Positions 16,295 to 26,314 of a stretch of DNA of 49,566 nucleotides are shown piece after piece. The notes under the pieces were generated by a model. It made no database searches. It saw only the letters and a program-made list of their open reading frames with translations, and was not told the DNA's origin. Each line of letters opens with the position of its first letter. The first letter of the stretch is position 1. The translations under genes and the position numbers were made by a program. The stretch comes from Candidatus Gastranaerophilales bacterium (lineage in GTDB: Bacteria > Cyanobacteriota > Vampirovibrionia > Gastranaerophilales > Gastranaerophilaceae), in assembly GCA_947589705.1 (NCBI GenBank), contig CANQCO010000003.1:1-49566 (forward strand), in the 5' to 3' direction.

Positions 16295-16861
16295 TTATAA
16301 AAAATCCTTTAATTTTTTTACTTCGCCGAATTCTATACCCATTTCTTTTACTAATGGCAGATTCATTAAGACCTTATTACTCAATCTGAATATTCTCGGA
16401 AAAATCTTATAATTATTTTGTTTAACGAGGGCAAAAGAAAGATGGTTTTTTTCTTTATCATATATTTTTGAAAAATTTAAGCCTAAAGTTGAGCAGAAAG
16501 GAAAAGAGGGATTCCCTTTTGAATCTTCCGTTAAAACGCCAAATGCTCTGCATACAAAGGGTCTGTGACTATATACACTGCATTTATGGTCTGTTAAATA
16601 CGGGCAGGTGTATGAATCAGGATTTTCTTTTTTTAATTTTTCTATATTTTCATTTATTTGTTTTTTTAAATTATCATCAAGTTTATTATATTCTTCTTTA
16701 AGGTAATTAAATTCAAGCTGTGACATAGGATAATCTCCTCTTTCGCAGCATAGTGAACAACCCTTTTGGCAGCATATATATTCTTTTTGGTAATCAAATA
16801 TTTTGGCTAAATCTTCATCTAATATTTCTAAAAATTTTTCATAATTTTCAAAATTATTCAT
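16295..16861 (-). CDS. YkgJ-family cysteine-cluster protein
   Basis: 188 aa of the YkgJ (CxxCxxCC) family of putative Zn or Fe-S cluster proteins. The first motif is CCQKGCSLCCERGDYPMS, the second CPYLTDHKCSVYSHRPFVCR (PxxCRxF-like). The biochemical role is not established for the family. The ATG directly abuts the larE stop (16862), so it is translated from the lar transcript. An Fe-S or metal link to the nickel-pincer genes is inference from position only. Confidence 0.85.
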   Translation of the reverse strand: MNNFENYEKFLEILDEDLAKIFDYQKEYICCQKGCSLCCERGDYPMSQLEFNYLKEEYNKLDDNLKKQINENIEKLKKENPDSYTCPYLTDHKCSVYSHRPFVCRAFGVLTEDSKGNPSFPFCSTLGLNFSKIYDKEKNHLSFALVKQNNYKIFPRIFRLSNKVLMNLPLVKEMGIEFGEVKKLKDFL

Positions 16862-17644
16862 TTATATGTCCATACTTCCTGTTCTTATGCCTTCTATATC
16901 CAGTGTAATATATTTTATATTATCGGATTTTAAATTATTAATTATATCATCTTTTTTATCTATAAATTCTTCAAAGTAGTTTTTATCAATTTCTATTCTG
17001 GCTATATCATTGTGCAATCTGAATCTTACGGATTTAAACCCCAAATTTTTAAGATATTTTTCATTTTTTTGCACAAGTTTTATTTTATTGACATCTAAAA
17101 TTGTGTTATAAGGGAATCTTGTTGCACTGCAAGGCTCTGAGGGTTTGTTATAAAAATCCAAATCGAGTTTTTTGGCATATTCTCTTATTTCTTTTTTATT
17201 TATACCATATTTAGCGAAAGGTGATAAAATCCCAAGTTCATTCAGGGCTTTTATTCCCGGTCTCAATACATTTAAATCATCATAATTTGTGCCGTCAATT
17301 GAATATTTTAAATTGTTTTTCCGTGCATATTCTTTCAATAATGTGAAAAATTTTCTTTTACAAAAATAACATCTGTTTTTTGGGTTATTTATAATATTTT
17401 TATCTTCTAAGGGGTTTATATTTATAATTTCTTGTTTTACATTGTATTTTTTGCATAAATCAACTGTAAAATTAATTTCTTCATCGGTTATGAAAGGGGA
17501 GTTAAAAGTAACCGCTGTTAAATTTAAATCTTTTAAAAGGTACAGAAGAAGAGAAGAATCTGTTCCGCCTGAGAGAGCAAGGCATATACCTTGCTCTGAC
17601 ATTGATTCTAAGTCTTGATTAAGCTGATTAAATTTATTTTGCAT
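16862..17644 (-). CDS. larE: ATP-dependent sacrificial sulfur transferase LarE
   Basis: 260 aa. LarE inserts sulfur into the pyridinium-dicarboxylate mononucleotide precursor of the nickel-pincer nucleotide (NPN) cofactor. The PP-loop SGGTDSS is at residues 25-31 and CYFCKRKFF at about 92-100. The region holding the sulfur-donor Cys reads KPSEPCSATRFPY, with a single Cys at 172, as in the sacrificial-Cys type rather than the three-Cys Fe-S type. It overlaps the transporter gene by 11 bp and abuts the YkgJ gene. The operon order is larB, larC, transporter, larE. Confidence 0.93.
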   Translation of the reverse strand: MQNKFNQLNQDLESMSEQGICLALSGGTDSSLLLYLLKDLNLTAVTFNSPFITDEEINFTVDLCKKYNVKQEIININPLEDKNIINNPKNRCYFCKRKFFTLLKEYARKNNLKYSIDGTNYDDLNVLRPGIKALNELGILSPFAKYGINKKEIREYAKKLDLDFYNKPSEPCSATRFPYNTILDVNKIKLVQKNEKYLKNLGFKSVRFRLHNDIARIEIDKNYFEEFIDKKDDIINNLKSDNIKYITLDIEGIRTGSMDI

Positions 17645-18530
17645 TAATTTTGCCTTTTATTGTAACTAAAACAGCACTTGCAGATACAATTAAAAGTCCT
17701 AAAATATTAGCGATGAAAGGATTTATTTTAGTTAATACGGCTGTTTTTGCTTGTATAGCTTCAGAAATTGAATAAATAATTCCCTGAGTTTGGTATGTTA
17801 TCGAGTCTGATATATTTAAAAGCGCCCATTCGAGCCCGTCAGGTTTATTAGAAGCATAATTGGATATTAATCCTGCAAGTATAACGGCAAATATAGCAAA
17901 GATATAGCTTGAAGCCTTATTGAACCATTGATTTTTTGTTAGTATAACAATAAAAGATGTTAAGAAGCCTTCAACAATACCTATCAAAAGATGAATGAAC
18001 ATCATTAAGCTTAAAAAATTTGAAAGATTGCCTGTTATACTTCCTGATAAAGTAGTTTCAATAATTACTGCAATACTTCCGAGTTCTAAAGCTGCCACAG
18101 ATGATATTAAACAAGCTGAAAGTTCGTGATTTTTTTCTTTTAAAGGTTTAAATAAAAGGGGATATACAATAAAACAAGGTATAAATGCCATATTAAAAAT
18201 GTTGCAGCCGATTGCCGTTAATCCTCCGTCCGCAAAAAATAATGCCTGTACTATAAGTATTAACGACATTGATAAAAAAGCTAAAGACGGACTTAATAAT
18301 GCGCAAAGCAGTATTGTACCTATCACATGCCCGCTTGAACCTGTTGAAGGTATTGCAAAATTAATCATTTGAAGTGCAAAAACAAAGGCAGTAAGGGTTA
18401 TATATAGCGGTATATTTTTTTTATCAAAATCATTTCTTGATTTTTTAAACGCAAAAAATACTGCTGTTCCCATGGCTAAAATCATTGGGATTCCTGTAAC
18501 AGGGCAAATTATTGAATTTCCTAAATGCAT
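17634..18530 (-). CDS. CbiM/NikM-type nickel transporter S-component with fused PDGLE domain
   Basis: 298 aa, about seven to eight hydrophobic segments. It begins MHLGNS, consistent with the family's N-terminal Met-His metal site, and has a further His in PSTGSSGHVIGT (residue 68). Near residue 230 NKPDGLEWALLN marks the PDGLE (CbiN/NikN-like) domain fused at the C-terminus. This is the metal-capture part of an energy-coupling-factor transporter. Within the lar operon nickel is the likely ion. The ATPase (CbiO) and transmembrane CbiQ partners are not next to it. It overlaps larE by 11 bp and starts 11 bp after larC. Confidence 0.9.
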   Translation of the reverse strand: MHLGNSIICPVTGIPMILAMGTAVFFAFKKSRNDFDKKNIPLYITLTAFVFALQMINFAIPSTGSSGHVIGTILLCALLSPSLAFLSMSLILIVQALFFADGGLTAIGCNIFNMAFIPCFIVYPLLFKPLKEKNHELSACLISSVAALELGSIAVIIETTLSGSITGNLSNFLSLMMFIHLLIGIVEGFLTSFIVILTKNQWFNKASSYIFAIFAVILAGLISNYASNKPDGLEWALLNISDSITYQTQGIIYSISEAIQAKTAVLTKINPFIANILGLLIVSASAVLVTIKGKINAK

Positions 18531-18541
18531 AATTATCTCCT

Positions 18542-19270
18542 TTAATTAATTAATAAAGCTCTTAAAATCGGGTTTTTATATTTTCTTTTACCTGCTCCGT
18601 ACCCTATTTTTTCAATAATAATTTCATCAGGGAGTTTTTCTCCCGAAAACAGGCTCGCACAAATAGCAATACCTGTAGGTGTAATCATTTCACCTTGGTT
18701 GTCCGTTATTTTAATGGGGATTTTGTATTTTAAAGCAATCTCGCAAACGGCTGGAACAGGAACACTTAAAGTTCCGTGCTGGCATTCAACGCTTCCCTGA
18801 CCTTCGGACAGTGTGGAAAAATATACTTTATCGGGGTTTATTTCTTCATATAACACCGAAAAACTTATTATATCTACAATTGAGTCGATAGCTCCCACTT
18901 CATGAAAATGAATTTCATTAATATCTTTGGCGTGAACCTTAGCTTCCGCTTGAGCTACTATTTTAAATATCTTTTTAGCAAGATTTTTGGCATTATCACT
19001 CATTTCAGCCTTATCTATTATATTGTTAATATCATTGAGATTTCTGTGCTCGTGTATGTGATGATGATGATGAAAAGGAAGAATTACATCAAAATCACTC
19101 GCTTGAATTGAATTGATATTTACCTTAGAGATTTTATATGTAAATTCATTATAAAGTTTAAGTGAATCAAGTGCTTTTTGAAGATTTTTTATATCAACCC
19201 CTAAATCCAATAATGCAGCAACCGACATATCACCTGAAATTCCAAAATTACAATCAAAATATAAATTCAT
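18542..19270 (-). CDS. larC: short LarC (LarC1-type) of nickel-pincer cofactor synthesis
   Basis: 242 aa. LarC is the CTP-dependent cyclometallase that inserts nickel into the pincer nucleotide. The N-terminus (YFDCNFGISGDMSVAALLDL), the His-rich HHHHHIHEH (67-75), IHFHEVGAIDSIVDI and TPTGIAICA match LarC. It stops after GYGAGKRKYKNPILRALLIN, where the full protein (about 400 aa) continues into the LarC2 domain. The next gene starts 11 bp later, so LarC2 is not encoded here in any frame. The start overlaps the larB stop by one base. Confidence 0.92.
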   Translation of the reverse strand: MNLYFDCNFGISGDMSVAALLDLGVDIKNLQKALDSLKLYNEFTYKISKVNINSIQASDFDVILPFHHHHHIHEHRNLNDINNIIDKAEMSDNAKNLAKKIFKIVAQAEAKVHAKDINEIHFHEVGAIDSIVDIISFSVLYEEINPDKVYFSTLSEGQGSVECQHGTLSVPVPAVCEIALKYKIPIKITDNQGEMITPTGIAICASLFSGEKLPDEIIIEKIGYGAGKRKYKNPILRALLIN

Positions 19271-19968
19271 TATTTACCTGCTATTTTTCTGTTAATCTGA
19301 TTTGCGCTGTAACCTGCGTTAAACCCGTTATCAATATTAACAATGGTCATACCCTCTGAGCAAGAATTAAGCATTGTTAAAAGAGCGGATAATCCTTGAA
19401 AAGAACTGCCATAACCGATAGAAGTAGGAACTGCGATAACGGGAATATCAACCAAACCTGCAATAATACCAGCTAAAGCACCTTCCATGCCTGCTATTGC
19501 TATAATTACATTTGCTTTTTTAATTTTTTCAATATTATCAAAGAGCCTGTGAATCCCAGCGATTCCGATATCATAATATTTTTTAATGTTACTTCCGAAA
19601 AATTCAGCAGTATCAGCGGCTTCTTCGGCTACTTTTATATCTCCCGTTCCGCCTGTACATATTGCTATTTCGCCTACTTTCTCAATGTTATTTTGAATTA
19701 GTGTTATTACTCTGCCTTGTTCATTATATTTTATATCGGGAAATTCTTTTTTAAGTGCATTATACTGTTCAAGTGAGGCTCTAGTGCCTAAAACATTCTG
19801 ACCATTGTCTTTAAATGTTTTAAATATTTTCACAAGCTGATTATTTGTTTTGCACTCACAAAAAACAGCTTCAGAACATCCTCTTCGCTTTTGCCGTTCT
19901 ATATCAAGTTTTGCAAAATCAAGTTCAATATATTTTTTATCATTATCCATAAAGTTATTGTATCTCAT
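19270..19968 (-). CDS. larB: pyridinium-3,5-biscarboxylate mononucleotide synthase LarB
   Basis: 232 aa. LarB carboxylates and hydrolyses nicotinic acid adenine dinucleotide, the first step to the nickel-pincer cofactor. It is a PurE-like protein: ARQKRRG-type N-terminus (DIERQKRRGCSEAVFCECKT, with the Cys-rich segment), ICTGGTGDIKVAEEAA, GIAGIHRL, AIAGMEGALAGIIAGL and VPTSIGYGSSF. The ATG at 19968 has GAGAG 8 nt upstream; an ATG at 19950 is the alternative. It lies 32 bp after the unknown gene at 20001 and overlaps larC by one base. Confidence 0.95.
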   Translation of the reverse strand: MRYNNFMDNDKKYIELDFAKLDIERQKRRGCSEAVFCECKTNNQLVKIFKTFKDNGQNVLGTRASLEQYNALKKEFPDIKYNEQGRVITLIQNNIEKVGEIAICTGGTGDIKVAEEAADTAEFFGSNIKKYYDIGIAGIHRLFDNIEKIKKANVIIAIAGMEGALAGIIAGLVDIPVIAVPTSIGYGSSFQGLSALLTMLNSCSEGMTIVNIDNGFNAGYSANQINRKIAGK

Positions 19969-20568: not shown

Positions 20569-20781
20569 ATGAATAAAAATTACCAAAAGAAACTGGGCAA
20601 AAATATCCGAGATATACGAAAATATAAGGGCTTGTCTCAAGAAAAATTAGCTGAATTAGTTAATAAGACGAGAAATTATATCGGAATGGTTGAACGGGCA
20701 GAAATTAATGTTCCCGTGTCGGTAATATTTGATATTGCAAAAGCATTAAATATCCATCCTAAAGAACTTTTTGAATTTTAA
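20569..20781 (+). CDS. XRE-family helix-turn-helix regulator (array gene 1)
   Basis: 70 aa, essentially a bare Cro/CI-type DNA-binding domain: NIRDIRKYKGLSQEKLAELV, then the recognition helix NYIGMVERAEINVPV, then FDIAKALNIHPKELFEF. It has no partner domain. No Shine-Dalgarno is visible before the ATG (only A and T for over 20 nt), a trait shared by all five regulators of this array. It is divergent from the lar operon. Confidence 0.85.
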   Translation: MNKNYQKKLGKNIRDIRKYKGLSQEKLAELVNKTRNYIGMVERAEINVPVSVIFDIAKALNIHPKELFEF

Positions 20782-20794
20782 TTTTACCTCACTT

Positions 20795-20817
20795 TTTACC
20801 CCGAAGTTTCGGGTAAA
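20795..20817. promoter_or_regulatory. inverted repeat between array genes 1 and 2
   Basis: TTTACCC (20795-20801) and GGGTAAA (20811-20817) are perfect arms around a CGAA/TTTC core that pairs with a one-base shift. It lies 32 bp upstream of the second regulator and has no T-run after it, so a repressor operator is more likely than a terminator. Confidence 0.5.
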
Positions 20818-20848
20818 TTAAATTGATATTAGCATTATTATTATAAAA

Positions 20849-21109
20849 ATGCAAGATGATATAAAAAAATTATATTTAGCAGTTTCAAAGATAATAAATA
20901 AAGTAAAAAATGAAAAAGGTATTAAATATACCGAGCTTTGTTATGAAAATGAAATACCGATGACAACATATGATGATATAATCAATGCTAAAACAAAAGC
21001 ATCATTTTACAATATATCAAAAATAATCAAAGGTTTAGGCTTGAGTTTTGAAGAATTTGGAAAATTATTAGATAATGAACTTCCCAAAGATTTTTTAGAA
21101 AAGTTATAA
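20849..21109 (+). CDS. small HTH-like regulator (array gene 2)
   Basis: 86 aa. The helical pattern and the C-terminal GLSFEEFGKLLDNELPKDF match the two clearer XRE paralogues downstream (21244 and 22047), but the recognition-helix region (EIPMTTYDDIINAKTKASFY) has diverged from the XRE consensus. It is therefore a third, more distant member of that subfamily. The N-terminus MQD is shared with the gene at 21244. No ribosome binding site is visible. Confidence 0.7.
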   Translation: MQDDIKKLYLAVSKIINKVKNEKGIKYTELCYENEIPMTTYDDIINAKTKASFYNISKIIKGLGLSFEEFGKLLDNELPKDFLEKL

Positions 21110-21140
21110 AAATATGAATATAAAGCATAAAATTGCAAAA

Positions 21141-21174
21141 AATATATAACATATTACTTATAATGTATAACTAA
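21141..21174 (+). pseudogene. remnant of the 3' end of an XRE gene (duplication scar)
   Basis: 21141-21181 repeats 21949-21989 with 39 of 41 bases identical. In the second copy this is the last codons of the regulator gene at 21608 plus 7 bases after its stop. Here the same codons remain open (NIYNILLIMYN then stop at 21172-21174), but there is no gene in front of them. I read it as the surviving tail of a lost first copy. Confidence 0.7.
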
Positions 21175-21193
21175 TAAGCTCTTCTTATTTTTT

Positions 21194-21231
21194 GTTGGTA
21201 TATAAACCACGCTTGTTGCTAATATACCAAC
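21194..21231. promoter_or_regulatory. operator-like inverted repeat upstream of array gene 3
   Basis: GTTGGTATAT (21194-21203) and ATATACCAAC (21222-21231) are perfect 10-bp arms separated by 18 bp, ending 12 bp before the ATG at 21244. The arm centres are 28 bp apart. The position over the presumed promoter fits autoregulation by an XRE dimer or tetramer. Confidence 0.6.
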
Positions 21232-21243
21232 TAATATAAAAAA

Positions 21244-21516
21244 ATGCAAGATAATGAAAAAATTCTAAAATTTAAAAATGCAACAGGTAACGTTATAAAG
21301 AAATTAAGAAAGACAAAAACAAATTTGTCTATTAATAAACTTTCTGCTGAATATGATTTTGATAAAGGTAATATTAGTAAAATTGAAAGAGGTAAATATA
21401 ATATTCACCTTATTACTGCTTGGAAAATATCAGAAGCTATGGGAATTTCTTTTGTTGAATTTGCAAAAAATTTACAAGATGAATTAGGTAAAGATTTTAA
21501 GTTTATTGATGAATAA
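21244..21516 (+). CDS. XRE-family regulator (array gene 3)
   Basis: 90 aa. Helix-turn-helix region: SINKLSAEYDFDKGNISKIE and RGKYNIHLITAWKISEAMGI. The tail ELGKDFKFIDE is identical in the gene at 22047 (KLGKDFKFIDE), so the two are paralogues. No Shine-Dalgarno. A TATAAA-like element lies within about 12 nt of the ATG, which could mean a leaderless mRNA. A long operator-like inverted repeat precedes it. Confidence 0.85.
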   Translation: MQDNEKILKFKNATGNVIKKLRKTKTNLSINKLSAEYDFDKGNISKIERGKYNIHLITAWKISEAMGISFVEFAKNLQDELGKDFKFIDE

Positions 21517-21607
21517 AATGTTTATTTATATTATGTTTTAATATAAAAAAGTTAAATTTAAAATTAATATTATTATTTAATACATCATATTTCTAATCTT
21601 AAAAGTA

Positions 21608-21982
21608 ATGGTTAAAGTTATAAAAATATTTTATTCTTTTTTTATGTTTGAAGTAGATGAAATAAAGAAAATTTTTGGTAAAGTTGTATATGAATTGCGT
21701 ATCCAAAAAAATATGACACAGGAAGAATTGGCTGAATATCTTTCTTTATCTCCTCATACAATAACAAGAATAGAAAATGGTAAGGTTTTTGTTTCGTGTG
21801 AAGTAATTTCTAAATTATGTAATTTATTTAAAATTGAACCAAGTGTGTTATTTACTCCAAGACCACATATTTTATATGAAGAACATCAGAATTATATTTC
21901 AAAAATAAAATCTATTTTACCAAAATTTAATTCAAAAAAATTAGAAGAAATATATAACATATTACTTATAATGCGTAACTAA
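21608..21982 (+). CDS. XRE-family regulator with C-terminal extension (array gene 4)
   Basis: 124 aa from the ATG at 21608; an ATG at 21644 (MFEVDEIKKIFG) would remove a hydrophobic N-terminus not typical of the family and may be the real start. The HTH is classic: ELRIQKNMTQEELAEYLSLS, HTITRIENGKVFVS, ISKLCNLFKIEPSVLF. A 40-residue helical extension follows, ending EEIYNILLIMRN. Its last codons are duplicated upstream as a remnant at 21141-21174. No ribosome site is visible at either start. Confidence 0.85.
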   Translation: MVKVIKIFYSFFMFEVDEIKKIFGKVVYELRIQKNMTQEELAEYLSLSPHTITRIENGKVFVSCEVISKLCNLFKIEPSVLFTPRPHILYEEHQNYISKIKSILPKFNSKKLEEIYNILLIMRN

Positions 21983-21995
21983 TAAGCTCCTTTTT

Positions 21996-22015
21996 TTGTT
22001 CAATATATTGAACAA
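21996..22015. promoter_or_regulatory. 20-bp perfect palindrome, likely operator
   Basis: TTGTTCAATATATTGAACAA is a perfect 20-bp palindrome, 31 bp upstream of the ATG at 22047. It occupies the same place relative to its gene as the GTTGGTATAT repeat does upstream of the paralogue at 21244, but with a different sequence. It is the best operator candidate in the window. Confidence 0.7.
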
Positions 22016-22046
22016 TATAAATAATAATATCAACTAAAATAATTAA

Positions 22047-22322
22047 ATGCAATGTCAAAATGAAAAACTTTTACTGTTTGCTTCTGAATTGGGGAAATTA
22101 ATAAAAGAAACCAGGGAAAAGAAAACCGGTTATTCTTTAGACAATTTTGCTAATTCTTTTGGTATTAGTAAAGGTGGACTAAGCACAATAGAAAATGGAA
22201 AATCTAATTGTAAATTAGCTACGGTGTGGTTAATTTCAGAAGCAATGGGACTTAAATGTTCTGAATTAATTAAACTATTGGAAGAAAAATTAGGTAAAGA
22301 TTTTAAATTTATTGATGAATAA
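22047..22322 (+). CDS. XRE-family regulator (array gene 5)
   Basis: 91 aa, paralogue of the gene at 21244. HTH region: SLDNFANSFGISKGGLSTIE and NGKSNCKLATVWLISEAMGL, closing LEEKLGKDFKFIDE. The recognition helix differs from the paralogue (SKGGLSTIE versus DKGNISKIE), which fits the different upstream operator. No Shine-Dalgarno. The AbrB-like gene follows after 12 bp and does have one, so the pair may be cotranscribed. Confidence 0.87.
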   Translation: MQCQNEKLLLFASELGKLIKETREKKTGYSLDNFANSFGISKGGLSTIENGKSNCKLATVWLISEAMGLKCSELIKLLEEKLGKDFKFIDE

Positions 22323-22334
22323 AAAGGTTATTTT

Positions 22335-22517
22335 ATGACAGTAGAAAGAAAATTGATGCGAAACGGTAACGGCTGGGCTTTAAGCATTAATTCTACAATC
22401 TTAGCTTTCTTGGATGTAAATCCTGAAGTTGATATGGTTAAATATTCAATGGAAAATGACAAACTGATTATTACTAAAAGTGATAAAAAAATTGATAAAT
22501 CAAAATTAAAAAAATAA
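22335..22517 (+). CDS. AbrB/MazE-like swapped-hairpin DNA-binding protein
   Basis: 60 aa. The N-terminal RKLMRNGNGWALSINSTILA and LDVNPEVDMVKYSMENDKLI match the MazE/SpoVT-AbrB pattern (basic strand, GNSW-like turn, hydrophobic alternation, DGxLII). Such proteins are antitoxins or transition regulators. No MazF-like or other toxin frame is adjacent, so the gene is an orphan. AAAAAGG lies 7 nt before the ATG. The basic tail (KSDKKIDKSKLKK) may aid DNA binding. It is convergent with tatC, 9 bp apart, over an AT-rich hairpin with AATAAAAT/ATTTTATT arms. Confidence 0.75.
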   Translation: MTVERKLMRNGNGWALSINSTILAFLDVNPEVDMVKYSMENDKLIITKSDKKIDKSKLKK

Positions 22518-22526
22518 AATTGTATT

Positions 22527-23231
22527 TTATTTTATTTTAGCAAATAATAATCCGCCTTCAAACAATAAATAGGAAGGAACAGCAAGCATTAATTGGCTTA
22601 CTACATCAGGTGGTGTTAATATTCCTGCAAGTACTAATAATGCAACTACTACATAAGGTCTTTTATCCGCAACGGATGAATATGACAAAATATCTGATTT
22701 TATTAAATAAAAAGTTATAATAGGTAGCTGAAACATTAGTCCGAATGCCAAAGAAAGCCATAAACCAAGATTTATAACCTCAGATATCCTAAATACCGCT
22801 TGAATATTCTCTGACTGAAAACTTAAACCGAATTTTATTATTAAAGGCAATATCATAAATATACAAAATACAATTCCTGCCGTAAAAAGAATACTTGATA
22901 TAACTACGAGAGATTTTATAATTTTCTTTTCATTATCATAGAGAGCAGGCAGAATAAAGTTCCACAATTGTTTTGCTATATAAGGAAAACAAATTATTAC
23001 AGACATCAAAACTGCCATTTTAATTTGAATTATAAACACCTCTGCCGGTGAGAAAAAATTTAAAGTTACTTTATTTGAACCTAAAATAATTTTTATAAAT
23101 CTGCTTAATATCTTTGGAGCGAAATAAAACATAAACGGTAAAACTATTACAATTGAATACAGGCACTTAAGAAGAGTCTGTCTTAATGCTTCAAGATGAG
23201 AAATTATGCTTTCATTGTCATCATTATTCAT
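22527..23231 (-). CDS. tatC: twin-arginine translocase subunit TatC
   Basis: 234 aa, six transmembrane segments, the receptor of the Tat system for folded, cofactor-bearing proteins. Diagnostic stretches are ISHLEALRQTLLKCLYS at the N-terminus, FFSPAEVFIIQIKMA (the conserved F-x-P-x-E-x-F), IAKQLWNFILPALYDNEKK, FGLMFQLPIITFYLIK and YVVVALLVLAGILTPPD. It starts 2 bp after tatA and is the last gene of a four-gene minus-strand operon with an exported oxidoreductase and a polyferredoxin. Confidence 0.97.
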   Translation of the reverse strand: MNNDDNESIISHLEALRQTLLKCLYSIVIVLPFMFYFAPKILSRFIKIILGSNKVTLNFFSPAEVFIIQIKMAVLMSVIICFPYIAKQLWNFILPALYDNEKKIIKSLVVISSILFTAGIVFCIFMILPLIIKFGLSFQSENIQAVFRISEVINLGLWLSLAFGLMFQLPIITFYLIKSDILSYSSVADKRPYVVVALLVLAGILTPPDVVSQLMLAVPSYLLFEGGLLFAKIK

Positions 23232-23233
23232 TT

Positions 23234-23449
23234 TTATACATCATTAGGCTTATATTCTTCAGGTTTTTCCTGAGCGTCTTCAATCGCATCTTTGAGTTCG
23301 TCGGTTTCTTTTTTTATTACTTCTTTTGCCTTTTTAAATTCATAAGAAGCTTTTCCTAAAGCTCTTGCAAGTTCAGGTATTCTTTTACCTCCAAATAATA
23401 GCAGAATAACTACTAGTATTAGTGTTATTTCGGTTATACCAAGCGACAT
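23234..23449 (-). CDS. tatA: twin-arginine translocase subunit TatA
   Basis: 71 aa: one N-terminal transmembrane helix ([18 protein letters not shown]), the hinge and amphipathic helix [20 protein letters not shown], and an acidic tail. These are the features of TatA/TatE. No separate TatB is seen, as in minimal TatAC systems where TatA is bifunctional. A good ribosome site (AAAAGGAGAT) precedes the ATG. It lies 21 bp after the polyferredoxin gene and 2 bp before tatC. Confidence 0.95.
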
Positions 23450-23470
23450 TTATTATCTCCTTTTGAAATA

Positions 23471-24742
23471 TTATAATACTTTTTGTTCATTAACTGCAAA
23501 TATTTCTATGGCATTTGTATCACAAACGGTTTTGCATTTTCCGCAGCCTATACATTTAGATGAATCTATAACTGTAATATTATCTTTAGTTTGAGAAATA
23601 GCACCTTTTGGGCATACAGATACGCATTTTGCACATTTATCGCATTTTTCACTGTTAATAACCGCCATTGCTATTCTTAAATTTTGTTTTTCTTCTAATG
23701 TAAGTTTTTTAATTGCACCCGACGGACATACCTTTGAGCATTCTATGCAGTCATATTTACAATAATTTTTATCATTGTATTCAATATGAACAGCACTAAA
23801 TATTTCATCGGCTTTTTTTATAATTTTATTCGGGCATGCTTTTACGCACAGATTGCAATTTAAACATTTATTAAACAGCCTATTTTCTGAAACAGCTCCC
23901 GGAGGAAGTATGATATTTCTGATTTTTTTTGCAGCAGTTTTGCTTAAATCAACTCCTAATTTTATTGCGCCTATAAATACGGTTAATGCTGCAGCTAATG
24001 TTATTACTTTTCTTCTTTGAATGTTAAATTTAACCTCTTCTTTCGGTTTTATTCCGTATCTTATTGCTTGTTTGGGGCATTTTTCAAGGCATTTAAAACA
24101 TTTAACACATATTTCATTATCAACATTTTGTTCATCAATGTTTATACAACCTGTAGGACAGTTACTCTCGCACATAGAACATGATAAACACTCATTTTTA
24201 TCAATATAGATTTTAAATAGTGAAAATTTGGATAATAATCCCAATAAACAACCTACAGGGCAAATGTTTGAACAAAAATATCTGTTTTTGAACACTGTTA
24301 ATATAATTATGGCAATAACTGTTATTATACCCGTTAAAGATAGAGTAAAAGCGGAACCAAAATATGTATAAGGTTCAATATATCTTATAATGATTGCGCT
24401 TCCGCCTGTTAGAGTGCCAAAAACAATTGCGGCTATAAAATATTTAAACGGTAAATTTTTTCTTGTTTCTTCCCTGTTTTCCCCTCTGAAAAGTCCGATG
24501 AGTTCTTGAATTATACCCAATGGACATAATAAAGAACAATATAACCTTCCAAAAAGCAGGGTTAATAAAGTTAAAACAATAATTAAACCTAATGCAATAA
24601 TTGAAAAATCAACTATTACTCTTTGTAATAGGGGTGCTAATTGAATATCGAAAAACTTTACGGGATAAAAAATACCTGTTATACCTAAAATAGCTGCTAT
24701 TAATATTAAAACAGCCAGTGTAAAACGAATTTTATAAAACAT
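23471..24742 (-). CDS. NapH-like membrane polyferredoxin with internal twin-arginine motif
   Basis: 423 aa. Four transmembrane helices (about residues 7-25, 43-64, 101-119, 132-151) carry two NapH-type CxxxCP motifs on the inner side (69-74, 157-162). Two 4Fe-4S motifs follow (CLSCSMCESNCP, CVKCFKCLEKCP; 185-222). Then RR at 243-244 and a fifth helix (VITLAAALTVFIGAIKLG). Four more clusters close the protein (CLNCNLCVKACP, CKYDCIECSKVCP, CDKCAKCVSVCP, CIGCGKCKTVC). Family role: moves electrons between the quinone pool or cytoplasm and periplasmic redox proteins. The arginine pair before helix 5 suggests Tat export of the C-terminal clusters. It lies 6 bp after the reductase gene and just before tatAC. 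Confidence 0.9.
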   Translation of the reverse strand: MFYKIRFTLAVLILIAAILGITGIFYPVKFFDIQLAPLLQRVIVDFSIIALGLIIVLTLLTLLFGRLYCSLLCPLGIIQELIGLFRGENREETRKNLPFKYFIAAIVFGTLTGGSAIIIRYIEPYTYFGSAFTLSLTGIITVIAIIILTVFKNRYFCSNICPVGCLLGLLSKFSLFKIYIDKNECLSCSMCESNCPTGCINIDEQNVDNEICVKCFKCLEKCPKQAIRYGIKPKEEVKFNIQRRKVITLAAALTVFIGAIKLGVDLSKTAAKKIRNIILPPGAVSENRLFNKCLNCNLCVKACPNKIIKKADEIFSAVHIEYNDKNYCKYDCIECSKVCPSGAIKKLTLEEKQNLRIAMAVINSEKCDKCAKCVSVCPKGAISQTKDNITVIDSSKCIGCGKCKTVCDTNAIEIFAVNEQKVL

Positions 24743-24748
24743 TATGCC

Positions 24749-25972
24749 TCACCTTGCTTTTTCATATTCTTTTTGAACTTGGCTTAATAATTCAGGAATC
24801 GGAAGATTCTGAGGGCAATTTTTATTGCATAATCCGCATTTTATACATTTATCTGCTTTTTCACTGTCACTAAGTGTTTCATAATATAGTTTTAAATGAA
24901 ATGCACTCTTCGTAACTTTATATTGATTGTATAAAGCAAAAATAGCAGGAATATTAATACCTCTGGGGCAAACCTCCATACAGTATTTACAAGCCGTGCA
25001 ATTAATTTCGCCTTGAGATTGAATTATTTTAGCTATTTCATCCGCTACTTTAATTTCTTCAGGTGACATTGGTGTGAAATTTTCAAAAGTGGCAATGTTT
25101 TCTTTCATCTGTTTTAAATTGCTCATTCCGCTTAAAACGGTAATAACATTATTTTGGCTTGCTGCCCATCTTAAACCGAACTGAGCAGTAGTTTCATCAG
25201 GATAATTTTCTTTTAATTTTGCCATAGCCTTTTCGCTTAAATTAACCAAACCTCCACCTCTTAAAGGTTCCATAACTGTAACGGGAATATTTAAGTTTTG
25301 AACTATATTATACTGTTCATGTGCGTTTACTACATCCCAATCAAGATAATTAATCTGTAGTTGTGCAAAATCCCATTTATAGTCATCTACGACATCTTTT
25401 AAAATTTCAGGTGTGCCATGGAATGAAAATCCTAAATATTTTATCTTACCTTCCTGCTTTAATTTATCAAGCTCTTCAACCATTTTAACTTGTTTATATT
25501 GGTCAACGGTATTTTGATTTATATTATGGCACATATAAAAATCAAAATAGTCAACCTGACACTTTTTTCTTTGTTCATCAAAAATTTTTCTAACGTCACT
25601 TCTCGAATTCATTTTATAAATAGGACTTTTATCAGCTAAAATAAAGTCTTCACGAGAATATTTCTTTAATACTTTACCGATGGCAATTTCCGATAAACCG
25701 TCAACATACATATATGCGGTATCAAAATAATTGGCACCATGGTTCATAGCATATTCCGTCATTCTGTCAAGTTCAGCCATGTCAACTTTGCTGCCGTCCA
25801 TAGGCAGTCTCATACAGCCAAAACCTAATAACGGTATATCAAGATTTTTAAATTTTCTTTTTGCCACCTGACCTTGAGTTTTTATAATTTTTTTATCAGA
25901 ACAGCCTGTTGTAAGTATTGCACTTCCGCCTAAAGTTAACACGGAATTTATAATAAAATCACGGCGTTTCAT
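24749..25972 (-). CDS. Tat-exported aldo/keto reductase lipoprotein with two 4Fe-4S clusters
   Basis: 407 aa. The N-terminus MKRRDFIINSVLTLGGSAIL has the RR motif, and the lipobox LTTGC puts the lipid Cys at 24. The aldo/keto-reductase barrel follows with all four catalytic residues: Asp84 and Tyr89 (FDTAYMY), Lys115 (ILADKS) and His149 (YMCHNI). The C-terminus holds two ferredoxin motifs, CTACKYCMEVCP (325-335) and CIKCGLCNKNCP (376-386). Fe-S cofactors assemble in the cytoplasm, which explains Tat export. Electrons may come from the neighbouring polyferredoxin. GGGGG lies 5-9 nt upstream of the ATG. The substrate is unknown. Confidence 0.92.
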   Translation of the reverse strand: MKRRDFIINSVLTLGGSAILTTGCSDKKIIKTQGQVAKRKFKNLDIPLLGFGCMRLPMDGSKVDMAELDRMTEYAMNHGANYFDTAYMYVDGLSEIAIGKVLKKYSREDFILADKSPIYKMNSRSDVRKIFDEQRKKCQVDYFDFYMCHNINQNTVDQYKQVKMVEELDKLKQEGKIKYLGFSFHGTPEILKDVVDDYKWDFAQLQINYLDWDVVNAHEQYNIVQNLNIPVTVMEPLRGGGLVNLSEKAMAKLKENYPDETTAQFGLRWAASQNNVITVLSGMSNLKQMKENIATFENFTPMSPEEIKVADEIAKIIQSQGEINCTACKYCMEVCPRGINIPAIFALYNQYKVTKSAFHLKLYYETLSDSEKADKCIKCGLCNKNCPQNLPIPELLSQVQKEYEKAR

Positions 25973-26026: not shown

Positions 26027-26314
26027 TTATGAAGCCAGTTCTGTAGTTATAAATTCATTTTTTATTTCATCTATAGATATTAATTCATATTTCTCATGTT
26101 CAGGATTCATAAGCACGCTATTGCATATTTTATTAATCTTATTGATAGCTGCTTCTATATTTTCAGCTTCTGTTGTTATTAAATAATATTTACCTGTTTT
26201 TATTTTTACATTTGAATCAATATTAGTGCTTTTTAAGACAGATTCTACTGCTAATCCATGTGAATCTTTAATGCCGTCTTTTAAAATAACTTTTATTTCA
26301 GCTTTGAATTTCAT
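26027..26314 (-). CDS. purS: phosphoribosylformylglycinamidine synthase subunit PurS
   Basis: 95 aa, slightly longer than usual (about 80). PurS bridges PurL and PurQ in the three-part FGAM synthase of purine synthesis. Pattern: FKAEIKVILKDGIKDSHGLAVESVLKS, INVKIKTGKYYLI-type strand (VKIKTGKYYLITTE), then INKICNSVLMNPEHEKYELI matching the family's LLxNPxxExY motif. purL and purQ are not adjacent. A 54-bp gap without an obvious terminator separates it from the reductase gene, so cotranscription is possible but metabolically unexplained. Confidence 0.85.
   Translation of the reverse strand: MKFKAEIKVILKDGIKDSHGLAVESVLKSTNIDSNVKIKTGKYYLITTEAENIEAAINKINKICNSVLMNPEHEKYELISIDEIKNEFITTELAS

Follow-up and report, generated by a model that had tools for sequence, protein, structure and literature searches.

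Why would the genes for a twin-arginine translocation (Tat) system stand in one operon with those for an exported aldo/keto reductase (AKR) and a polyferredoxin (PFD)? The question is raised by 49,566 nucleotides (the window, meaning the whole stretch of DNA analyzed) from a Candidatus Gastranaerophilales bacterium: assembly GCA_947589705.1, contig CANQCO010000003.1, here C3. An earlier note on this DNA had described four minus-strand genes separated by 6, 21, and 2 bp, and coordinates and open reading frames agree (Table 1). The AKR-PFD-tatA-tatC genes probably constitute a dedicated Tat module with an outward electron path to the exported AKR. The earlier finding is confirmed and is larger than first reported; as an overall reading it is partly supported. 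It had overlooked the nickel-pincer nucleotide (NPN) genes, lar, at 16862–19968.

The assembly comprises 2.09 Mb, with 95% completeness and 5.6% contamination. Its close named relatives, judged from AKR relatives and a tree (best 80 of 588), are Candidatus Gastranaerophilales (gut Melainabacteria). Two samples were compared: a relatives set of 58 genomes, own assembly counted, and a phylum sample of 386 genomes. Among the 58, AKR presence was called at E ≤ 1e-30 and a full PFD at more than 300 bits. Labels beginning with G denote genomes, and those beginning with L denote loci.

Two likely Tat substrates

The first gene of the operon encodes a protein that matches PF00248 (AKR) with 158.9 bits against a cut-off of 24, along with 4Fe-4S dicluster matches; COG1453-like is presumably the appropriate label for an AKR with such a domain. 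Residues D84, Y89, K115, and H149, which we take to be the catalytic Asp-Tyr-Lys-His tetrad, are invariant among 48 aligned relatives, as are the eight cluster cysteines. The signal peptide begins MKRRDF and carries Cys24. The lipoprotein described at the outset, with twin-arginine (RR) signal, intact tetrad, and two 4Fe-4S motifs, is thereby borne out.

Exported AKRs consistently display RRx[FL]: 23/23 in clade I, 11/11 in clade II, and all seven examined from other phyla. A lipobox was found by script in 20 of the 23 clade I proteins, or 21 of 23 if the MSGC of L164 is counted by eye. Signal-less AKRs with a C-terminal dicluster domain (presumably COG1453, with many in Firmicutes) share the barrel, the tetrad, and the eight cluster cysteines, but RRx[FL] is absent from all 27 signal-less relatives examined. 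In both the window and G020, purS (26027–26314 in the window) lies 54 bp upstream of the AKR gene.

The second gene had been read as encoding a NapH-like protein with six cluster motifs. The six motifs stand, but the protein is a NapH-NapG fusion whose internal twin-arginine had escaped notice: a NapH match covers residues 38–235 and a MauM/NapG match 243–409, both under curated cut-offs. The NapH-like part (1–235) has four transmembrane (TM) segments. It is followed by R243 and R244, invariant among 18 sequences from several phyla, and then directly by a fifth hydrophobic segment (246–264). Two cluster motifs (185–222) precede the twin-arginine and four (293–407) come after it, so that two clusters are predicted inside (cytoplasmic) and four outside. 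With the two motifs of the AKR, the pair holds eight (among these, 328–339 reads CxxxCxxCxxxC). Because its internal twin-arginine is invariant, the PFD, like the AKR, is likely Tat-dependent. At least two likely Tat substrates within one operon provide a plain reason for the location of tatAC.

This layout has precedent. The accessible text of PMC5449189 describes a dual Sec-Tat polyferredoxin family with NapH-NapG layout, and reports that the membrane part of the MLMS-1 protein was probed by reporter fusions in E. coli, and that such fusions showed Tat export of its outer domain. Like NapGH and the fusion PFD of MLMS-1 (a delta proteobacterium) as described there, the window PFD has a NapH-type membrane part, an RR before the fifth TM segment, and four predicted outer clusters. 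Unlike them, it has the genes for an exported AKR and for its own TatAC beside it, and its lineage is reported, in the accessible text of PMC3787301, to be without quinones and terminal reductases.

An apparently minimal translocase

TatA and TatC, both named in the earlier note, exceed their family cut-offs. The TatB model gives the window TatA only 32.6 against a cut-off of 56.5. Judged from the operon genes, to which the search for TatA and TatB was confined, the translocase appears to be of the minimal TatAC type.

Further tatC copies had been proposed as a check, and just one was found, on a contaminant-like contig; otherwise, the window tatC is the sole copy in the assembly. The idea of two tat systems in the genome rested on this second gene, located on contig C99 (5,968 bp) of G000, the own assembly. 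C99 is best read as foreign because over 4,056 bp its DNA matches the G034 locus at 95.0% identity, its PFD is only 67% identical to that of the window, and the assembly is contaminated at 5.6%.

A proposed outward path

These features suggest a scheme whose topology, electron donor, direction of flow, carbonyl reduction, and bound cofactor we infer. Two items would cross the membrane through TatA and TatC in folded, cofactor-loaded form: the AKR, together with the outer, NapG-like half of the PFD. The NapH half would be inserted by Sec. Electrons would pass from the two inner to the four outer PFD clusters, on to the two AKR clusters, and thence to an active site that would reduce a carbonyl compound outside the membrane. 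The eight motifs of the path first proposed are present. Its quinol donor is unlikely if quinones are absent, as the accessible text of PMC3787301 reports for these fermenters; on the same ground, cytoplasmic ferredoxin would most likely give the low-potential electrons. Because NADPH should not occur free outside the cell, the hydride carrier would have to stay bound in the AKR through export. For clade I, this carrier may be NPN from the linked lar genes.

AKR reactions are reversible, and the module might instead run inward, with the AKR oxidizing an outside alcohol or sugar and electrons passing to cytoplasmic ferredoxin for hydrogen; ferredoxin reduction from alcohol is, however, uphill. 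Hydrogen formation via ferredoxin is indeed reported for Melainabacteria fermenters (PMC3787301, accessible text). NapGH, however, is described as a quinol dehydrogenase for nitrate respiration, that is, as working outward (PMC5449189, accessible text), and an inward path appears improbable.

According to the accessible text of PMC3787301, gut Melainabacteria live by fermentation and have neither membrane electron carriers nor terminal reductases. An outer reductase that is conserved and comes with its own exporter would represent an overlooked electron outlet in these bacteria, and a Tat system apparently kept for two linked substrates would make a simple natural model. Each part comes from a known family. 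Their combination was absent from the titles and abstract openings searched, in which no Tat-exported AKR, AKR-NapH pair, or AKR with NPN was found, a body of text to which subscription literature is largely external.

Conservation and decay

Gene order, co-occurrence, and coordinated decay were computed across the two samples, adding to the signal peptides, motifs, and fold. In the relatives set, AKR and full PFD occur in the same 31 of 58 genomes (the PFD of G030 is split on two contigs), and all 31 have TatC. TatC is present in 36 genomes, the other five being G024, G037, G039, G043, and G057; none of the 22 genomes without TatC has an AKR or a full PFD. That tatAC is apparently kept mainly for this pathway, as first suggested, fits these counts, with known exceptions.

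The phylum sample extends the pattern. AKRs of clade I, to which the window AKR belongs, were found in full or nearly full length in 48 genomes, with TatC in 47 and LarC in 46. Clade II AKRs, about 45–48% identical to the window AKR, were found in 14 genomes, all 14 with TatC and none with LarC. AKR fragments or pseudogenes occur in 13 genomes from 10 genera, of which four have LarC and two TatC; these were assigned manually by coverage and stops, and the fragment of G330 lies at a contig start. Left out of the tally were weak matches to LarC (G228, E 2.3e-4) and to TatC (G159 and G264, E ~6e-4), as well as the signal-less AKR of G070. AKR remnants stand beside partial tat and lar loss at L155, L156, L157, L158, L159, and L277, among other loci. 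Parts of the module tend to decay together.

Comparison of gene order among relatives, also proposed earlier, revealed that AKR-PFD-tatA-tatC is held in both clades. Only one of 35 loci departs from the AKR>PFD order: L153, a second AKR of G277, with no PFD. This tally omits five duplicate loci (L161, L165, L172, L175, and L196) and loci lacking an AKR (such as L091 and L093).

Several observations weigh against the favored reading. The co-occurrence counts take no account of kinship, and the contrast between clades I and II represents two clades, not 62 independent events. Within the order, G187, G237, and G039 have TatC without AKR. G024 (L091) retains tatA-tatC-larB-larC-larE with AKR and full PFD gone, which may reflect either other Tat cargo or recent loss. 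G021, with neither AKR nor TatC, keeps a NapH-half match of 138.9 bits. Stops interrupt some AKRs counted as full-length (G026, G266, and G228, for example), so the module is partly decaying even where scored as present. The L045 operon contains an additional RR lipoprotein, an FMN-reductase; thus, Tat does not serve strictly one pair everywhere. Finally, the AlphaFold model of the PFD is of middling confidence (pLDDT 70.9), with the helix that follows the twin-arginine (242–274) mostly under 50.

The L045 protein was also followed as a lead to more RR cargo, but its homologues in L284 and L163 have no signal peptide. Flavodoxin/FMN-reductase-like proteins with RR signals lie within or close to the AKR or lar loci in L045 (14273–15010), L181 (635–1228), and L187 (3129–3773). 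Others were noted by eye to carry another N-terminal signal or anchor: L110 (2392–2994), L091 (5332–5910), and L282 (9270–9842); likewise, within or close to AKR or lar loci, L275 (14635–15213) and L148 (9771–10364). Such signal-bearing proteins are possible further exported electron carriers. At L037, L039, and L042, genes that by eye resemble 2-oxoacid:ferredoxin oxidoreductase stand, along with one for a small ferredoxin, on the opposite strand near the AKR operon; they are a possible ferredoxin source.

A link to nickel-pincer genes

The lar block of the window starts 2.6 kb beyond tatC. Of the 35 clade I loci, 23 have larB after tatC among the eight genes sought, at times with intervening genes, and a common full order is AKR-PFD-tatA-tatC-larB-larC-cbiM-larE. 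Of the 31 genomes in the relatives set with an AKR, 30 encode LarC (the exception, G015, is 82% complete), sometimes with lar on another contig. Because LarC is present even when lar lies elsewhere, the evidence favors a functional tie over a merely positional one. Within the order, a single genome, G114, has LarC without AKR. A family of ~345 aa is often found between tatC and larB (L034, 9167–10210, and homologues); its scanned member, L042 4216–5247, has no Pfam match.

In common with the LarA-LarB-LarC-LarE system for NPN, the window has larB, larC1, and larE above family cut-offs, and a CbiM-type transporter. It differs in three respects: no LarA among the 58 genomes; a LarC without LarC2; and a Tat-exported AKR as operon partner. 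Searches with PF09861 (LarA), for which the controls T. maritima and M. acetivorans both matched, yielded three weak matches in the 58 genomes (19.2–23.5 bits, one above 23.3). A hidden LarA was considered, but these three, and three more from other phyla, are all DUF362 by Pfam. The AKR itself has no match to the Lar_N domain (PF09861). About 15% of the genomes analyzed in PMC11796402, among them many cyanobacteria, have larB, larE, and larC without larA, and its accessible text infers unknown NPN-binding proteins.

The missing LarC2 makes complete NPN synthesis doubtful, a further point against the favored reading where it invokes NPN. The LarC profile covered positions 1–234 of 375, with no separate LarC2 match in the relatives set; six of six further LarC proteins of the order are LarC1-only as well; and LarC E-values in the order (3e-67 to 1e-86, phylum sample) equal those of LarC1-only proteins. 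The solved full-length LarC spans both halves of a Kiritimatiellota LarC, whereas the window protein matches the first part only. Nickel insertion may therefore differ from the described CTP-dependent route. The larE product displays, by eye, a CxxC-C pattern, which the accessible text of PMC9283937 associates with the [4Fe-4S] LarE type, as in Thermotoga LarE.

Which hydride carrier?

The tie between lar and the Tat module is unexplained and informative. One answer, unlikely but consequential, is that the clade I AKR is the missing non-LarA NPN enzyme, its barrel holding NPN or a close relative instead of soluble nicotinamide. Such an AKR would take up its cofactor in the cytoplasm, pass out in folded form through its own Tat, and be re-reduced outside via the iron-sulfur wire. 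If true, NPN would serve net reduction, not only hidden-redox racemization.

It is quite possible, however, that the AKR carries NADP(H) tightly bound through export, with the clusters and PFD recharging the bound NADP, or with ping-pong exchange between two outside substrates, and with lar serving something else. Zymomonas glucose-fructose oxidoreductase is a Tat substrate exported with NADP, and thus is likewise a Tat-exported oxidoreductase with a nicotinamide cofactor; unlike the AKR, it has a Gfo/Idh/MocA fold, no iron-sulfur clusters, and no electron relay.

The AKR barrel is compatible with bound NADP(H) and counts against a special carrier in the favored reading. A fold search identified a (beta/alpha)8 AKR barrel (the assignment concerns the barrel; the C-terminal Fe-S part may match other folds), which looks like an ordinary, normal NAD(P)H barrel. 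The S281–N292 loop is retained, including Q288 (25/25 clade I rows and 28/31 other relatives) and N292 (48/48); we presume the loop holding Q288 to be the adenosine-phosphate loop. A lost NADPH site is not supported, in that several positions unlike general AKRs occur in signal-less relatives too. D114 was considered as a cofactor marker; it is T in clade II, yet 9 of 31 other sequences also have D, and so it marks no special cofactor. Moreover, clade II AKR genomes are entirely without LarC, so NPN is no general need of this AKR type. Bound NADP(H) does not explain, on the other hand, why all but two of the 48 clade I genomes have LarC and why lar genes stand in the operon, when LarA was not found in the 58 genomes.

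Alternatively, the NPN user might be a DUF362 protein, with the AKR module sharing the operon or a pathway step. DUF362 and LarA (DUF2088) both belong to Pfam clan CL0471, according to the accessible text of PMC11770544, and four of six scanned DUF362 proteins have a sub-threshold Lar_N match. Standalone DUF362 proteins of ~290 aa occur in 12 of the 51 LarC-bearing genomes of the order (one partial, one from the own assembly), and all 12 carriers have LarC. DUF362 adjoins lar genes in G126 and G262, and RR-signal DUF362 genes adjoin AKRs in L181 and L187. Nevertheless, this proposal seems somewhat unlikely. No standalone DUF362 was found in the other 39 of the 51 genomes (E ≤ 1e-20, with a single query that may miss distant ones), whereas an AKR, full or fragmentary, is present in 50 of the 51. 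The DUF362 protein of the window assembly (contig C48) is 96% identical to that of the G026/G034 lineage, and probably is a contaminant. A longer form (frames of 450–505 aa) occurs in 14 genomes, three with LarC. The lar link offers two candidates, AKR and DUF362, as NPN users in larBCE genomes without larA.

Exported reductases in other phyla

The contigs of the best 80 of 588 AKR relatives were scanned for other phyla. Among these 80, RR-signal AKRs were found in Elusimicrobiota: L170 (tatA-tatC-AKR-PFD), L171 (AKR-PFD), and L176 (AKR alone). They were found also in Victivallales L187, in L188 (PFD-AKR-AKR), and in Kiritimatiellota L181. The AKR-PFD pairing extends to Elusimicrobiota and Victivallales. 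L181 has the order PFD-larB-larC(full)-larE-DUF362(RR)-AKR-AKR, with an RR flavodoxin upstream; its LarC carries both LarC1 and LarC2, and its genome is without a LarA match. Three of the six other-phylum genomes with exported AKR have LarC (L181, L187, and L176); it was not found in the genomes of L170 (a 1.0-Mb assembly), L171, and L188. The Victivallales genome of L187 has a true LarA, which tells against a simple rule there that AKR replaces LarA.

In the tree, exported AKRs form one group with moderate support (88/75). The Kiritimatiellota AKRs branch outside clades I and II, and so the lar link would be either old or have arisen twice.

Gene neighborhood

Table 1. Genes of the Tat module, the lar block, and their neighbors in the window
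Feature	Position	Strand	Length, matches, and basis
Tat-exported lipoprotein AKR with C-terminal 2x[4Fe-4S] domain	24749..25972	-	407 aa; profiles, alignment, fold, signal peptide
PFD, NapH-NapG fusion	23471..24742	-	423 aa; 4Fe-4S matches along gene
tatA	23234..23449	-	71 aa; TatA_B_E 59.8/21; TIGR01411 55.7/53.9 (bits/cut-off)
tatC	22527..23231	-	234 aa; TatC 191.4/25.1; TIGR00945 168.5/132.7
helix-turn-helix cassette and 60-aa AbrB-like protein	20569..22517	+	AbrB-like label by eye; separates tatC from larB
larB	19270..19968	-	NF033503 286.6 bits, cut-off 175; solved LarB is best PDB match
larC, LarC1 part only (N-terminal)	18542..19270	-	242 aa; LarC1 189.6/90; no LarC2
CbiM-type cobalt/nickel transporter component, PDGLE domain	17634..18530	-	CbiM 157.8/23.1; under NCBIfam equivalog cut-offs
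larE	16862..17644	-	TIGR00268 258.6/150; solved LarE is best PDB match
CxxCxxCC (YkgJ-like) protein	16295..16861	-	after lar genes in several relatives

The sibling G020 has a different gene, and no cassette, between tatC and larB. Over 91 aa, the cassette protein at 22047–22322 shows 100% identity with a protein of G005 (L041), although identity between that locus and the window is only 84% for the AKR and 68% for tatC; this disparity suggests that the cassette was recently transferred.

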